A DNA stretch of 64,000 nucleotides from the NCBI RefSeq assembly GCF_028369105.1, contig NZ_JAQNDO010000001.1, forward strand, positions 3,936,501-4,000,500. The letters run 5' to 3'. The translations under genes were made by a program, and so were the position numbers. Under the pieces are notes generated by a model. It was not told where the DNA came from, searched no databases, and saw only the letters and a program-made list of their open reading frames with translations. Positions 33,031 to 40,229 of the stretch are shown here, one piece after another (the stretch's first letter is position 1; every line of letters begins with the position of its first letter). The DNA is from Polyangium mundeleinium. Lineage in GTDB: Bacteria; Myxococcota_A; Polyangia; Polyangiales; Polyangiaceae.

Positions 33031-34383
33031 TCAGTCCACCGGTTTTCCGTCGAGTTTGCCGCGGATGCGCTGTACGGCGTAGACGATGAGCGCAACGAGC
33101 CCGAGCGTGGCCGCGGCGTGCAGGGCGGTCGTGTCTTGTCTCATGAGCAGGCCTGCGCAGGACAAGAATCCGAGTACGGGAATGGCCAGCGGCACGGGAA
33201 AGGCGGCGGGCGCAGCAGTCGGGTTGCGTTTGACGCGAATCAACGCGAGGTGCAACAGAAGGAACACCACGAGCAGGAATGTCGAGGTGCCGGATGCAAG
33301 GGTCTTGATGTCGCGGAAACACAGCAGCAAGACGATGGCGACCGTGACCGCGACCCCCACGCCGACGATGGGCGTGCGCCATGTGGGATGTACGTGCGAA
33401 AAGAGCGGTGGCAAAACCCCCGATCCTTTTCGTGACATACCATAGAGGAGACGCGACGTCATCAGGAGATTGAGGAGCGCGGTGTTGAACGCGGCAAACA
33501 CTGGAACCACGGTGTAAATCCACAGCGGGAATCCAGGGGCGGCTTTGCGCACGACGTCGAGCAGGGGTGACTGGGATTCGGCGAGGGCTGCCGGTGCCAT
33601 CACGGACACGGCCACCAGCGCGACGAGACAGTAGATCAGAATCGTGCCGGCGACGGAAAGACCGATGGCGAGGGGGACGTTGCGCTCGGGATGGATGACT
33701 TCCTCGCTGAGGTTGGCGAGATCCTCGAATCCGATGAAGGCGTAGAACGCCAAGGATGCCCCCGACACAGCGAGCAGCGCGGCGGGCGTGCCCTGGTGTG
33801 GCGCTGCGGCCGCGGCGAAATCGAGGTAGCTCACGGAGCCGAGGAACCGCGCGCCGAGGAAGATGACGAAGAGAAGCCCAGAGAATTCGATGATGGTGCA
33901 GACGGTATTGGCGGCGGATGACAGCACGATTCCGCGCATGGCGATGGCGCCGAGCAGGAGCACGAACGCGAGCGGCACCAGCTGATCTCGCGCCACGGCC
34001 GGCGCGCCGGGGAGCAGGGCCAGCGCATAGTTGCCGATGATACGGGCGCCAGTCGCCATCGAAAAGACCCCGGATAGCCCCACGAAGAAGGTCACGAGAA
34101 ATGTCACGAACGTATTGCGGTGAATCACGTGACAGAAATGGGCGGCGCCGCCGGCCTTGGGATAACGCGAGGTGAGCTCGGCGTAGGTGAGACCGGTGAG
34201 GCCCGCGGTGATTCCAGCAATGACGCACGACACCCAGGCGGCGGTGCCGGTCATACCGGCGATGCGGCCGACGAGCCCGTAAACGCCGGTGCCCAGGATA
34301 TCACCGATACCGAAGATGGTGATGGAGGCGAGCCCGAGCGCGCGCCTGAGCCCCTGCGGTTCTTGGTCGGGTGACGTGGTCAG
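33031..34383 (-). CDS. APC superfamily amino acid/polyamine transporter, apparent CTG start
   Basis: A 12-helix permease. The first ATG in frame (34254) would cut off helix 1, but the frame is open upstream and encodes the family's signature, FGIGDILGTGVYGLVG. Between the upstream stop and 34254 there is no ATG, GTG or TTG. CTG at 34383 is preceded by AAGGAG with six bases of spacing, so CTG is the likely start, giving 450 residues. Later motifs fit APC transporters: YAELTSRYPKAGGAAHF and FYAFIGFEDLANLSEEV (conserved Glu in helix 6). It probably imports a cationic amino acid or polyamine; the substrate is inferred only at family level. It is divergent from the permuted-binding-protein operon. 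Confidence 0.85.
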   Translation of the reverse strand: MTTSPDQEPQGLRRALGLASITIFGIGDILGTGVYGLVGRIAGMTGTAAWVSCVIAGITAGLTGLTYAELTSRYPKAGGAAHFCHVIHRNTFVTFLVTFFVGLSGVFSMATGARIIGNYALALLPGAPAVARDQLVPLAFVLLLGAIAMRGIVLSSAANTVCTIIEFSGLLFVIFLGARFLGSVSYLDFAAAAAPHQGTPAALLAVSGASLAFYAFIGFEDLANLSEEVIHPERNVPLAIGLSVAGTILIYCLVALVAVSVMAPAALAESQSPLLDVVRKAAPGFPLWIYTVVPVFAAFNTALLNLLMTSRLLYGMSRKGSGVLPPLFSHVHPTWRTPIVGVGVAVTVAIVLLLCFRDIKTLASGTSTFLLVVFLLLHLALIRVKRNPTAAPAAFPVPLAIPVLGFLSCAGLLMRQDTTALHAAATLGLVALIVYAVQRIRGKLDGKPVD

Positions 34384-34729
34384 AGCTGCTCCTTCGGGTG
34401 TCCGGGCCGGTGAGCGTCACGCGGGTTTTCCCCTCCGTACGCCCACGCAGTGGCACGAGGAGAACGCGGCTCGTCCAGACGCAGGGATAGCATGTCGCAC
34501 GAGCCTCGGTGCGCATCTCCACACCGCGCCCATGCGTCCCGGGCGCAGCCTTCCTCCAGATACGCGAGGAGCCCGCTCCGGGTGTTCTGCCGGCTCGGCG
34601 CCAAGGAAGCCTGCGCCCGCCTGGACAACCTGTGCAGCCTCTTCGATCGCCAGCCCGACGAATGGATGGGTTGGGCGAGCCCGGCGTCTGGTCCGGTTCG
34701 TGCCCGGTTCGTGCTGCGTGAGGAGAAGG
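34384..34729. other. Intergenic region with a possible gene remnant
   Basis: These 346 bp separate the divergent transporter genes. No complete gene is present. On the plus strand about 34585-34690 reads RVFCRLGAKEACARLDNLCS and then FDRQPDEWMGWA with strong GC3 bias, which looks like a remnant of a coding sequence of unknown origin. GTGAGGAGAAGG just before 34730 is the ribosome site of the next gene. Confidence 0.35.
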
Positions 34730-35608
34730 ATGCAGAAGCGATTCGCCTGGACGCTCGCGTTCCTCGCCGCGACCGTGTGGGCCGCTGCGGCGTGCGACAA
34801 GAGGGCTCCGCCCTCGCTCCCCGCCCACCCGATCACGAGCGTGAGCGACCTCATGCCCGGGGCGAGGGTTGGCGTGCAGCGGGGCACGACCGGCGCGTTC
34901 TACGCGGAGGACACGCTTGCGCCGAGGGGCGTCCAGATCGTGACCTTCATCAAGGCCCCGGACATGTACAACGCGCTCGAGGCGGGGCAGATCCAGGCCA
35001 TCATCAACGACCTTCCGATCTCCGAGGACGTGGTCGAGAGGAAGCCCGTTCTGAAGATCGTCCAGCGGATCGACAATGGCGAAAAATACGCATTCGCTGT
35101 CCACAAGGAAAACCTCGCGCTCCTCCAGGGCATCGACCAGGCGCTCGAGAACCTGTTCGCCGACGGCACCTACAAGGCGATCTTCACCAAGTATTTCCCC
35201 AGGCAGCAGCTCCCGTCTCATGTGGAGGAGGCGACGGCCGTGCCCTTCTCTGGCTGCCCCTCGCTGTCGACGGTCCAGCCGAGGACGCTGACGGTCGGAT
35301 CGGACATCCCCTATCCGCCCTTCGAGTTTTTCACCGAGAGCGGCGAACCGACGGGATTCGATGTCGAGCTCATCGAAGCCATCGCCAAGGAGCTATGCCT
35401 TACCCCGAAGTGGGTCAACTCGAACTTCGACACCATTTTCACGAGCCTCTCGGCGGGCAGGTTTGACGTGGTCGCCGCGGCCGTGACCGCGTACGCCCCG
35501 GAGGGCTCTCCCTCGTACGGCACGGTGAAGGCCCGGCAGAAAATCGTGTCGTTCACGAAGCCTTATTATTCAGCCCTGCAGTCGCTCACGGTGAAGGCGA
35601 GCGGTTGA
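34730..35608 (+). CDS. Circularly permuted amino-acid ABC transporter binding protein
   Basis: A 292-residue lipoprotein: signal MQKRFAWTLAFLAATVWAAA with Cys at 22. The family 3 solute-binding fold is complete but in the wrong order. Residues 35-157 are what is normally the second half: DLMPGARVGVQRGTTGAFY, APDMYNALEAGQIQAIINDL, then NGEKYAFAVHKENLALLQG and the closing helix ADGTYKAIFTKYF. Residues 185-292 are the normal first half: RTLTVGSDIPYPPFEFF, GFDVELIEAIAKEL, SLSAGRFDVVAAAVTAYAP, ending FTKPYYSALQSLTVKASG. The natural chain order is restored if the end (LTVKASG) is joined to ITSVSDL. A linker of about 27 residues with one Cys bridges the old N- and C-termini. The cut falls at the hinge between lobes. 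It starts a three-gene polar amino acid importer operon. Confidence 0.85.
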   Translation: MQKRFAWTLAFLAATVWAAAACDKRAPPSLPAHPITSVSDLMPGARVGVQRGTTGAFYAEDTLAPRGVQIVTFIKAPDMYNALEAGQIQAIINDLPISEDVVERKPVLKIVQRIDNGEKYAFAVHKENLALLQGIDQALENLFADGTYKAIFTKYFPRQQLPSHVEEATAVPFSGCPSLSTVQPRTLTVGSDIPYPPFEFFTESGEPTGFDVELIEAIAKELCLTPKWVNSNFDTIFTSLSAGRFDVVAAAVTAYAPEGSPSYGTVKARQKIVSFTKPYYSALQSLTVKASG

Positions 35609-35614
35609 GCGCGT

Positions 35615-36688
35615 ATGAACCGGATACCAGCGCCGCGTCCAATTCGAGGGATCGCCGCGCTCCGCGAGGGGAGCCGGCCCCTCGGGGTGGTGAGCGCCCT
35701 CGTCGGGGGGCTTGCCCTCGCGATCGTGCTTGGGGGCACGGCATCCGTGCTGACCGAATACGGGATCCAGCGCGAGGACCGGATCGCGGCGGCGCTGCAA
35801 TCGAGCGAGCTTTTCACGATCCTCGTGTCCGGGAGCCTGCTCGGCGCGGGCGCCATGGCGCTCGGCTTCGGGGCCTACCGGCGCATGCCGACCCGGGTGT
35901 CACGGGAAGAGGCGATCGCCGGGGCGGTGCTGGGCCTTCAGGCCTCGATCTCCGGCCTTGCCCTGCTCTGGTTCATCCAGGGCGACATGGAGAGGTTCGC
36001 CCGTAACTTCCTGAGCTTCGAGCAGATCGTACCGCAATACGAGGCCTTCCTGAACGGAGCCAGAAATACGCTCATCCTGGCCGGCACGGGCGAGCTCTTC
36101 GGGGTGCTCCTCGGCCTCGTCCTCTCGGTGTTCACGATTTCCAAACGGGCGGTCGTACGGGCTCCGGTGCGCGTGTACATCAACCTCTTTCGAGGGACGC
36201 CGCTCCTGCTCCAGCTATCTCTGATCTATTTCGGCCTGGCCCTCGGGCTCGGCGTGAACATGTCCGCCTACACCGCCGCCATCCTGGCCTTCTCCCTCAA
36301 CACCGGCGCCTACTCCGCGGAGGTGTTCCGGGCTGGTATCCAGTCGATCGAGCGCGGCCAGATGGAAGCAGCCCGGGGGCTCGGGCTCGGCTACATGCAA
36401 TCGATGCGGTACGTCATCGTGCCCCAGGCCGTGCGGCGGGTCATCCCGCCCCTCATGAACGAGTTCGTCATCTTGATCAAAGATACCTCGCTCATCGCCT
36501 TTCTCGGGCTGACGTACGCGCAGCGCGACCTTTTCTCCGTCGGCTCGCAGGGCTACTCGCAGTTCTTCAACGCGACATTTTATGTCGCCTCCGGGCTCGG
36601 CTATCTCGTCGTCACGCTGCCCCTGATCAGGCTGGTGACCTGGGTCGAGACGCGGCTGCGGAGCGGTCTTGTGGGGGCCGTGGCATGA
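35615..36688 (+). CDS. Polar amino acid ABC transporter permease
   Basis: A 357-residue inner-membrane protein, 6 bp after the binding-protein gene. The first 150 residues hold three hydrophobic helices not found in the minimal permease ([54 protein letters not shown]). The His/Glu/Gln permease domain follows from about 150: [36 protein letters not shown], and the ATPase-coupling EAA loop [20 protein letters not shown] near 249. It forms the membrane channel with the GlnQ-like ATPase encoded next. The N-terminal extension could dock the unusual permuted binding lipoprotein, but that is speculation. Confidence 0.9.
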
Positions 36689-37467
36689 GCCGCGAGGCCA
36701 ATGCGCTCGTGTGGCCGGCGGGGCCGGTCCCGGCGGACACGCCGCTCATCCGGCTGGAGGCCATTCACAAGTGGTGTGGCAGTCTGCATGTGCTCAAGGG
36801 AATCGACCTCGACCTTGCGTCCGGCCACGTCTTGGTGGTGATTGGCACCTCTGGCTCGGGCAAATCCACGCTCCTGCGCTGCATCGACATGCTCGAAGAG
36901 CCGACGTCCGGGCATGTCTGGTTCAAGGGCCGTGACATCACGGACGTTCGGGTGAACCTGAACGAGGTGCGAACGCACATGGGAATCGTGTTCCAGGCGT
37001 TCAACCTCTTTCCTCACAAGACGGCGCTGGGGAACATCACCCTTGCCCTGGAAAAGGTGCTGCACATGCCCAGGGATCAGGCCAGGGAGCGGGCCATGGC
37101 GGAGCTCGAGCACGTGGGGCTGGGCCAGAAGGCCCTGAGCCATCCAGGGCAGCTCTCCGGGGGCGAGCAGCAGCGGGTGGCGATCGCACGAGCCCTGGCC
37201 ATGCGCCCGGACCTGATTCTGTTCGACGAGGTCACCTCGGCGCTCGATCCGAAGCTGGTGGCCGAGGTGCTCGCCGTGATGCAGCGGCTCGCATCGGAGG
37301 GGACGACCATGGTCGTGGTGACCCACGAGATGGGGTTCGCGCGGGAGGTCGGGACCCGCCTCGTGTTCATGGACGAGGGCGTCATCGTGGAGCAGGGGGA
37401 GCCGAAAGCCGTCTTCGAAAATCCCCAGGACGAGCGGACGCGGCGGTTTCTCTCTTCGGTGCTCTGA
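36685..37467 (+). CDS. Polar amino acid ABC transporter ATP-binding protein (GlnQ-like)
   Basis: A 260-residue ATPase whose ATG overlaps the permease stop (ATGA), so the two are translationally coupled. Walker A is GTSGSGKST near 55-63, the Q-loop is [12 protein letters not shown] near 112, the signature is LSGGEQQR near 158, Walker B is [12 protein letters not shown] near 178, and the switch His is in [10 protein letters not shown]. Gln/Glu transporter hallmarks ([15 protein letters not shown]) are present. It energises uptake of a polar amino acid. A duplicated 390-bp element begins 28 bp downstream. Confidence 0.94.
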
Positions 37468-37494: not shown

Positions 37495-37888
37495 GGCAAC
37501 CCCATTCGAGCTCCGTGACTCCCGAAACACGCCGCCTCACGACCCAAGTCGATGTCTTCTCCGGCGTCCTCAGCCATGTGACGCAGCCAATCCCTGCGGC
37601 GGACGAGCTCCTCGTGATCCCCGTTCACTACTGGTACGCGGCAGCCTTCACGCGGAAACGTGGACTTCGCCTCTGGAAGGCGCCGTGGGGACGGCTCTCG
37701 GGGCTCATCTGGGGCGGTGCGGGCGCACGCCTCGTGGCGAATCTCCTCCTTGGCTTCGTCCCGGGTGTCGGCATTTTCTCCAATGCGATCACCGCCGTGG
37801 CCATGACCGAAGCACTGGGCCGTTACCTCGACAGGAAGCTCGACGCCGCGGAGGCCAAGGTCCAGCGCCGAGTGTCATGACGAGGCTC
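37495..37888. repeat. 390-bp direct repeat, copy 2
   Basis: Matches 27189-27580 in the same orientation from GGCAACCCCATTCGAG onward, with substitutions such as GCCTCCTT/GCAGCCTT and TTTTTTTCAAT/TTTTCTCCAAT. The few changes point to recent duplication or gene conversion. Copies bound a block containing the PAS-GAF kinase, GAF protein, lipoprotein, sufS and both transporters. Confidence 0.85.
37515..37880 (+). CDS. Small membrane-associated protein (DUF697-like tail), copy 2
   Basis: The second copy of the 121-residue protein at 27209, from GTG 37515. Only a handful of residues differ (AASF to AAAF, IFFNAITAVV to [16 protein letters not shown] to VQRRVS), all conservative. Both copies are intact, which suggests they are or were recently expressed. 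It ends 14 bp from the end of the convergent PEP-synthase-like gene. Function unknown. Confidence 0.55.
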
Positions 37889-37893
37889 GAGGC

Positions 37894-40152
37894 TCAAGGC
37901 CGCCGCGCCGCCTCGAGCAGCAGGCGCCGCTCGGCCGCGGCAATCGCCCGCCGTGCAGCCGGCTCTGCGTCGGGGTTGACCGAGATCGATGTGATGCCGA
38001 GCCGCACCAGGTGCTCGGCGAACTCGGGCCGATTCGACGGAGCCTGGCCGCATAACGAGGAGGTGATTCCGGCCTTCCGGCACGCGCGGACGATCCGCTT
38101 GATCGCGTCGAGCACGGCTGCGTCCGATTCGTCGAAGAGCTCGGCGCACAACCCCGAGTCGCGATCCACGCCCAGCATGAGCTGGGTCAGGTCGTTCGAA
38201 CCGATGGAGACACCGTCGATGCCCATGCGCGCATACGTAGGGATCCAGTACGCCACCGAGGGGACCTCGGCCATGACCCATCGCCAAAGACCTCGCTGGC
38301 GGCCGAGCGCGCTTCGCTCGACCATCTCGAGGCACGCTTCGAGCTCCCAGCGCGTCCGCACGAACGGGATCATCAGGTGCAAGTTCGGCGTCTCCTCACG
38401 GACCCGGGCGAGCACGTCGAGTTCGAGGGCGAACAGCTCGGGTTCTCGCACATAGCGATAGCAGCCGCGATATCCGATCATCGGATTCTCCTCGATGGGC
38501 TCGAACCGCTCGCCCCCTTTCAGCCCGCGGAACTCGTTGGTCCGGAAATCGTAGGTCCGATAGATGACCGGTCGGGGGTGAAAGGCGCGGGTGATGCGGA
38601 GCAGGGACGTTGACATGCGCTGGATGAAGTCGTCGCGGCCGCCGGACGCGAGCAGCTCCTTCGGGTGCACCCCGGCGAGCGCGTCGAGCAGCATGAACTC
38701 GGCTCGGAGGAGCCCCACACCGTCCACCGGCAGCGCGGCGACCTCTTCGGCGCGGTCTGCAATCGCCAGGTTGACGTAAAGGCGCGTGCCGAGAACGGCA
38801 GGCGAAGGCGCGCCCGATTGCCCAGGCCCTGGGGAGGCCGTCCTGGGCTTTTCGACCGCGGGGGCGGCGCCCGCGAGCACCTGACCGCGCGCCCCGTCGA
38901 TGGTGACGAGCTCGCCATCCCGGAGCAGGCGGGTCGCCGAGCGCGCGCCGACCACGCACGGGATACGCAGCTCGCGGCTGACGATCGCGGCATGGCAGGT
39001 CATTCCGCCGCTGTCGGTCACGAGCGCCGCCGCGCGTCGGATCGTAGGTACCCAGTCCGGCGACGTCATCGGCGCCACGAGCACCTCGCCCGCCTCGAGC
39101 CTTTGCCCCTCGCCCGGCGAGCGCAGGACGCGCACCCGACCCGACGCAATGCCCGGCGAGGCGCCGAGGCCGGAGACGAGCACCGCTCCTCGCTCCGGTG
39201 GTGCACCGAGCGTCGTGATGGGCCGGCTCTGGACCAGATAGAAGGCGCCGCCTTCCTCGGCCCATTCGATGTCCTGCGGAGCGCCGTAATGTTCCTCGAC
39301 CTGTAATGCCAGGCGCACCAGCGCGAGGATTTCCTCGTCGCGGAGCACTCTGCGCCCCCCCTCCTCCTCCGACAGCTCCACGCGTCGTTCTGCGCCGTCG
39401 GGGCCACGGATGACCTTGAACGCCTTGTGTCCTACGCGCGCCTCGAGCAGCCGGGGGCCACGCTTCGATACGGTGTACGTATCCGGCTCGACCTGACCAC
39501 CGACCACGACTTCTCCGAGCCCAAATGCCGCCTCGATGACGATGCGTGAGGTATCCGCCGTCGCCGGGTCCGCGGTGAAGATCACGCCCGAGCGATCGGA
39601 GCTCACCATTCGCTGCACCACGACCGCCAAGGCGGGCTCGTCTCGAAGGCCCTCGCTCTTCCGATATGCGACCACGCGCTCGCCGTACGCGGACGCCCAG
39701 CAGTCGCGCACGCGCTCGAGCAGCGCCTGCTGCCCAACGACGTGCGTGTACGTCTCGTGCATCCCGGCAAACGAGGTCGTGGCCGTGTCCTCCGCGGTGG
39801 CGGACGAGCGCACCGCAACAGCGGGGGAGGGGCCGAACTTTTGGTAGGCATCGACAATCTCCGCCTCGATCTCGGCCGGTATCGCTGCTGCGCGGACGAG
39901 GCGCCTCATCTCGGTGCTCGTCGCGCGCATAGCGGCTGCGTCGTCCGGATCGAGCCCCGCCAAACGCTCGGCAAGCTGCTGCCGTATCCCCGCGGCCTCC
40001 ATCGAGCAGAGGAACGCATCCGCAGGAATGACGAAGCCGGGGGGCACGGGCAGCCCCGCGCGCGTGAGCTCGCCCAGATTGGCCCCTTTTCCACCGGCCG
40101 ACGCGATGTCCGCGCGCGACAGCTTTTCGAACCAGATCACGTGCCCGACCAT
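37894..40152 (-). CDS. ppsA: Phosphoenolpyruvate synthase-like enzyme
   Basis: About 752 residues from ATG 40152, which has GGAGGTGACC directly upstream; an in-frame start at 40224 is weaker. The PPDK/PEP-utilising architecture is complete. The N-terminal ATP-binding domain has [10 protein letters not shown] near 20 and [18 protein letters not shown] near 115. The swivelling phosphohistidine domain has [16 protein letters not shown] with the catalytic His near 407. The C-terminal PEP/pyruvate barrel has [30 protein letters not shown] and SSLCGQAPS, with the catalytic Cys in the last. The reaction is pyruvate + ATP + water to PEP + AMP + phosphate. It is divergent from the hydrogenase operon, so both may share a regulator. 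Confidence 0.88.
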
Positions 40153-40180
40153 GGTCACCTCCCCCCCGGGGCCCGCGGCG

Positions 40181-40200
40181 CTTGCCAGCGTGCCGGCAAG
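40181..40200. promoter_or_regulatory. 20-bp near-palindrome between ppsA-like and hydrogenase genes
   Basis: CTTGCCAGCGTGCCGGCAAG is an inverted repeat with one mismatched pair, 29 bp upstream of the ppsA-like start codon at 40152 and 80 bp before the hydrogenase start. It is not an FNR or CRP consensus. Position and symmetry suit a dimeric regulator controlling both directions. Confidence 0.4.
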
Positions 40201-40229
40201 ATTCACGCCTCGCCTGTCCAGCAACGCGA

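Follow-up and report, generated by a model that had tools for sequence, protein, structure and literature searches.

The window analysed here is a stretch of 64,000 nucleotides from Polyangium mundeleinium (contig NZ_JAQNDO010000001.1, positions 3,936,501 to 4,000,500 of the forward strand). Its plus strand encodes, at 34730..35608, a circularly permuted family 3 solute-binding protein of 292 amino acids, a probable lipoprotein, recognised from its profile match, its orthologues in the genus, solved structures and an AlphaFold2 model. The coordinates, reading frame and peptides given for it in a first-pass annotation of this DNA agreed on re-checking. A probable ribosome-binding site (GAGGAGAAGG, 34720..34729, plus strand, identified by eye) lies immediately 5' of the ATG. 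The protein includes the following parts, all encoded on the plus strand: a signal peptide, a probable lipobox and a short spacer (residues 1-34, 34730..34831), assigned from the sequence and from the low AlphaFold2 confidence, which is below 50 over most of residues 1-21; lobe 2 with the crossover strand and the closing helices (residues 35-157, 34832..35200), delimited by solved-structure alignments; a new linker from the old C-terminus to the old N-terminus (residues 158-184, 35201..35281), set by the sequence and its weaker constraint, whose length of 27 amino acids was counted correctly in the annotation; and lobe 1 (residues 185-292, 35282..35605), which ends just past the first crossover strand according to solved-structure alignments and AlphaFold2. 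The motif AAAC with Cys22 is what we take to be the lipobox, following the usual lipobox rule. The only other cysteines, Cys176 in the linker and Cys223 in lobe 1, are kept in the five complete copies of the genus and, by eye, the pair is absent from the relatives L035, L037 and L038; a disulfide between them is possible. Two more 251-residue SBP_bac_3 frames are present in the same genome (G000:C1:3921486-3922073 and 2086867-2087454), one of them about 14 kb before the window.

The permuted gene is the first of a gene set. An ABC permease with an N-terminal extension (35615..36688, plus strand; Pfam PF00528) starts six bases past the stop codon of the binding-protein gene, and an ABC ATPase (36685..37467, plus strand; Pfam PF00005) overlaps the permease by four bases, so that the genes adjoining the binding-protein gene are those of a polar amino-acid ABC importer operon. 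The set is flanked by an amino-acid permease (AA_permease_2, 33031-34254, minus strand) and by a pyruvate phosphate dikinase and PEP-utilising domain protein (37894-40224, minus strand); a 121-residue frame at 37515-37880 had no Pfam match.

The binding protein scored 105.7 bits against the SBP_bac_3 profile (PF00497), compared with a curated cut-off of 26.4 (E 2e-30). Given this E-value and the presence of the gene in all six genomes of the genus, the family match is not due to chance. As the annotation had proposed to check, the profile matched in two swapped pieces and not in the usual domain order: profile positions 1-93 aligned to residues 187-291, and positions 40-131 to residues 68-157. 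Another SBP_bac_3 search also gave two stretches, the best being 187-290. Since the two profile ranges overlap, the alignments to solved structures are the cleaner evidence for the swap: AncQR (4zv1) aligned by its positions 11-104 to residues 186-290 and by 109-231 to residues 35-156; and the tandem SBD1-SBD2 protein of GlnPQ (6h30) aligned in a single run from residue 36 to 282, passing from the second half of SBD1 into SBD2. The usual order of the family (lobe 1, lobe 2, closing helix) is therefore replaced here by lobe 2, closing helix, 27-residue linker and lobe 1, and the protein was filed as a permuted relative of family 3 and not as a canonical member. The circular permutation claimed in the annotation, with lobe 2 at 35-157 and lobe 1 at 185-292, was borne out by 4zv1 and 6h30, and at the level of sequence the product is confirmed as a natural circular permutant of a family 3 amino-acid binding protein. 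That the protein was fused from parts of two distantly related paralogues was considered and rejected: outside the genus, L035 comes closest to either lobe (62% and 58%, with L205, L038 or L037 within 1 point).

L035, L037, L038 and L042 are normal-order genes belonging to gene sets of the same type, and all four belong to the Actinomycetota, which makes a transfer into Polyangium seem likely. Their permeases share 47-61% identity with that of the window over positions 6-8 to 354-356, a range that includes the extension. The annotation had suggested that the permease, through its N-terminal extension, might have co-adapted to the permuted partner; this was rejected, since the extension also occurs beside these four normal-order genes and is consequently independent of the permutation.

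The AlphaFold2 model of the permuted protein reached a pLDDT of 91.0 and a pTM of 0.84. The alignment behind it had 61 rows, namely nine permuted proteins (one partial) and separate lobe fragments of normal-order proteins, so the pairing of the lobes in the model rests on few rows. The top structural match by Z was OpuAC 2b4m (Z 12.6, rmsd 4.8, 217 residues aligned, residues 29-292 on 9-261); four OpuAC entries had Z values of 12.2-12.6 and the next row 10.6. Normal-order family 3 proteins matched the permuted model with Z of about 10 and about 170-180 aligned residues. Large binding proteins aligned more residues than OpuAC at a lower Z (5yyb, 226 residues, Z 9.9; 4ra1, 223 residues, Z 10.1), and Foldseek placed the GlnPQ tandem at the top of its list and OpuAC in third place, the OpuAC TM-scores being only about 0.5. 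The normal-order control, L035 (pLDDT 89.7), gave 50 listed rows, mostly family 3, with Z of 24.1-28.3 and 213-239 aligned residues. In the permuted model, then, a family 3 sequence seems to follow the chain order of OpuAC. The new hinge topology announced in the annotation is a fair inference, but it is not unique, OpuAC giving the best Z and a near end-to-end alignment.

The residues corresponding to HisJ D11, Y14, D30, R77, G119, T120, T121 and D161 are identical in the permuted protein; S72 is replaced by Thr, S69 and S70 by Ala, and L52 by Phe. In HisJ, R77, T120/T121 and D161 are among the positions that contact the alpha-amino acid, and all of these are kept. The Ala and Phe replacements suggest that the ligand may be other than a standard amino acid. 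In the AlphaFold2 model, the strand at 284-289, taken as the first crossover, just precedes the cut. A cut after this strand would leave each lobe as one continuous stretch with one crossover remaining, and the second crossover (strands at 108-125) would alone join the lobes, the hinge being one covalent strand versus two normally. An alpha-amino acid or a derivative would be bound between the lobes and passed to the permease, as by a normal family 3 protein. On the evidence as a whole, we regard the product as very probably functional: an amino-acid binding lipoprotein that serves an ABC importer and has been circularly permuted by nature.

The gene is present with the same order in six of six Polyangium genomes, its five relatives being 86-95% identical. 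P. fumosum (G003) has two copies, each ending at a contig end after residue 235, so that the whole gene is visible in only five genomes. The surroundings upstream in the window are common to one of these copies only (L034, not L033), and both contigs end at the identical base within the gene, which is expected if the remainder is a collapsed repeat. Among the ten pairwise comparisons of the five complete orthologues, dN/dS ranged from 0.155 to 0.32 in lobe 2 and from 0.17 to 0.40 in lobe 1; for the linker, of 27 codons only, it was 0.34-2.29 in nine pairs, one pair being not computable. By these values both lobes are under purifying selection and the linker is less constrained, although not wholly free, since four of its nine values were below 0.7.

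These data bear on three other explanations. Two tandem normal-order genes merged into one hybrid during assembly, the artefact that the annotation had named as fatal to its reading, would leave the middle of the tandem pair, which is what the gene looks like, and both P. fumosum contigs break within it; however, the genome of the window was assembled in two contigs, and the complete gene with an identical cut is found in four other genomes of the genus, assembled separately. The two-contig assembly and the five complete copies exclude such a collapse, to which we give practically no credence. A non-functional relic or hybrid pseudogene left by the duplication is very improbable: lobes 1 and 2 are under purifying selection, a plausible ribosome-binding site precedes the ATG, and in all five genomes where the gene is complete the neighbouring permease and ATPase reading frames are undamaged. 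It is also conceivable that lobe 1 of one chain pairs with lobe 2 of its neighbour in a domain-swapped dimer, as PMC10601554 describes swapped elements in circular permutants engineered from ribose-binding protein; this is improbable, given that the single-chain AlphaFold2 model, a monomer prediction, is compact and confident. The swap itself looks real and kept by selection.

Permutants were searched for in other genomes, counting single-domain proteins aligned in one run across the junction; all the counts are lower bounds, and the whole-genome searches (the class of the window, the class of G318 and a phylum sample) considered, for each genome, its 7 or 8 best candidates. A scan of contigs kept the best 80 of 374 confirmed loci, 10 of them permuted (L030-L034, L036, L039, L041, L047, L100) and 70 of normal order. 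A permutant was found in at least 11 of 317 genomes of the window's class (the six genus members, G051, G236, G238, G239 and G143); in at least 7 of 377 genomes of the phylum sample, among the matches listed (G000, G001, G004, G005, G051, G143, G914); in at least 3 of 345 genomes of the class of G318 (locus L039, Acidimicrobiales), among the matches listed (G318, G622, G439); in at least 1 of 24 genomes of the class of L035 (G675); in at least 2 of 3 genomes of the phylum of L047; and in at least 1 of 249 genomes of the class of L041, where 39 other genomes matched only within query residues 65-261, as expected of normal order. Of these permutants, G914, G622, G439 and G675 were checked individually. 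The permuted label of L041 was set by hand, since the lobe 2 profile is divided there between the two ends of the chain. Long frames with at least two SBP domains and a one-run match (L116, L119, L197, L207, L172, L173) were excluded as permutants, and G091 (a frame of 1084 aa) was also left out of the count.

The cut lies at or just after hinge 1 in Polyangium, L205, L036/L039/L171, L047, L174 and L206; at hinge 2 in L041, with lobe 2 mostly C-terminal; and inside lobe 2 in G051, G236, G238, G239 and G143. Six of about eight lineages are thus cut at hinge 1, a proportion from which no hot spot is claimed, because most of the sequences behind the search profiles (A1, A3) were hinge-1 permutants and the sample leans to hinge 1. 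Near the permuted genes of G051, G236, G238, G239 and G143 there was no match to the permease or ATPase of the Polyangium operon. The permuted genes of G239 and G143 lie just upstream of a gene (L136:6695-10300, L137:778-4425) whose product, 1200 residues long, contains HEAT repeats and matches cyclic-nucleotide-binding domains twice; the G143 product also shows, at its N-terminus, a weak MFS match that stays under the curated cut-off.

The number of events was estimated from a tree of 150 rows (18 permuted) with the lobes set in a common order; 19 loci, for the most part long frames, were left out, as were duplicates, rows with partial sequences and loci with several domains. This tree needs eight label changes, five of them forced by branches with an SH-aLRT of 95 or more; an earlier 124-row tree needed five, three of them forced. 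L206, L047 and L174 form long branches in the 150-row tree, and their placements are consequently unsure. Four lineages (L041, L174, L205, L206) are each represented by one contig of one genome, so an assembly error is possible in any of them; the Polyangium, L036-type, L047 and G051-type lineages occur in two or more genomes each. Judging from the trees and the cut places, permutation seems to have recurred in family 3, affecting about eight lineages and using at least three cut places.

A more careful tree of 31 of the 150 rows, chosen by hand, grouped Polyangium with the normal-order L035 (97/93) and the permuted L205 with the normal-order L037 and L038 (97/93). A single clade of the six permuted rows was rejected by the binding-protein sequences (AU p 0.0015, an optimistic value since the group was picked after the 150-row tree). 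The tree of permease and ATPase, calculated from rows of at least 35% identity, L044 and L073 being omitted, was compatible with a single clade (AU p 0.325); the true ATPase gene of L037 is cut by a contig end. Polyangium and L205 share the same cut place, and together with the permease and ATPase result this leaves some weight to a permuted gene ancestral to the clade of Polyangium, L035, L037, L038 and L205, in which the two permutants would go back to one event and normal order would have been restored. We consider this unlikely, as the binding-protein tree rejects the single clade, subject to the optimism of its p-value, and as normal order would have to be restored more than once.

Permutation by duplication predicts live tandem intermediates, according to PMC3320104. 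In two relatives, G369 and G373 (L172, L173), a single frame of 540 and 579 residues, respectively, spans two complete SBP domains, which in G369 are 81% identical. A permease gene lies directly 3' of each of these tandem-domain genes. The permuted L174 (G439) groups with these proteins and, at 42% over 250 columns, aligns in one run with the central part of the G369 protein: the relatives of the L174 lineage still encode the tandem duplicate predicted by the duplication route. No tandem intermediate was found in the lineage of the Polyangium gene itself; its linker, by eye and compared with L035 and L042, resembles the native C-terminal tail followed by the native stretch before lobe 1, which fits this route. 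A normal gene would have undergone in-frame tandem duplication, followed by the loss of lobe 1 from the first copy and of lobe 2 from the second. Duplication with truncation is the likely origin of the Polyangium gene, in keeping with the duplication and loss of the outer halves proposed in the annotation, and the direct evidence for such a route comes from the L174 lineage.

Natural circular permutations are often known from very distant pairs only. Here, permuted and normal-order proteins form close pairs in the same kind of operon (L205-L038, 74%; L041-L045, 76%; Polyangium-L035, about 60%), and together with the tandem relatives they provide matched pairs for testing folding, hinge motion, affinity and docking. 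A linear profile scores a permuted gene as two partial hits, which is a warning for annotation pipelines. There is, in our judgement, an even chance that family 3 is a natural laboratory of repeated permutation by duplication, with about eight events, at least three cut places, mostly at the first hinge, and a tandem intermediate alive beside one lineage; the one-crossover hinge may adjust how the protein opens and closes, and OpuAC, of the betaine family, would have arrived at the same solution.

We take the PF00497 family, to which the Polyangium protein belongs, to be of type II. Natural permutants of binding proteins are already known in two other families, OpuAC and TpMglB-2. TpMglB-2 of Treponema pallidum ('Type Ic') is described in PMC4990184 as a natural circular permutant among ABC binding lipoproteins that still binds its sugar; it has the type I sugar-binding fold, in which permutation adds a fourth crossover, whereas the Polyangium protein would have lost one of two. 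Circular-permutation relations were reported with CPSARST for betaine-binding proteins (including 2b4l), molybdate-binding proteins and CysB (PMC2395249). In the SBP_bac_3 amino-acid family, no natural permutant is reported in the titles and opening lines of abstracts among the matches listed from the open-access literature. OpuAC of Bacillus subtilis (glycine betaine; 2b4l, 2b4m, 3chg) aligns nearly end to end with the Polyangium protein, the aligned ranges pointing to the same chain order, but differs in being only 8-9% identical and in belonging to a betaine, not an amino-acid, sequence family; the betaine-binding profile (OpuAC, PF04069) gave the Polyangium protein 13.8 bits, below its cut-off of 21.2, and the two were presumably permuted separately. 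The GlnPQ SBD1-SBD2 protein (6h30) models the tandem stage, both of its domains being complete and of normal order. HisJ, LAO and GlnH resemble the permuted protein in the sequences of the lobes and in most of the ligand-contact positions compared, and differ from it in the order of the lobes. The Polyangium protein thus presumably combines the chain order of OpuAC with a ligand binding like that of HisJ.
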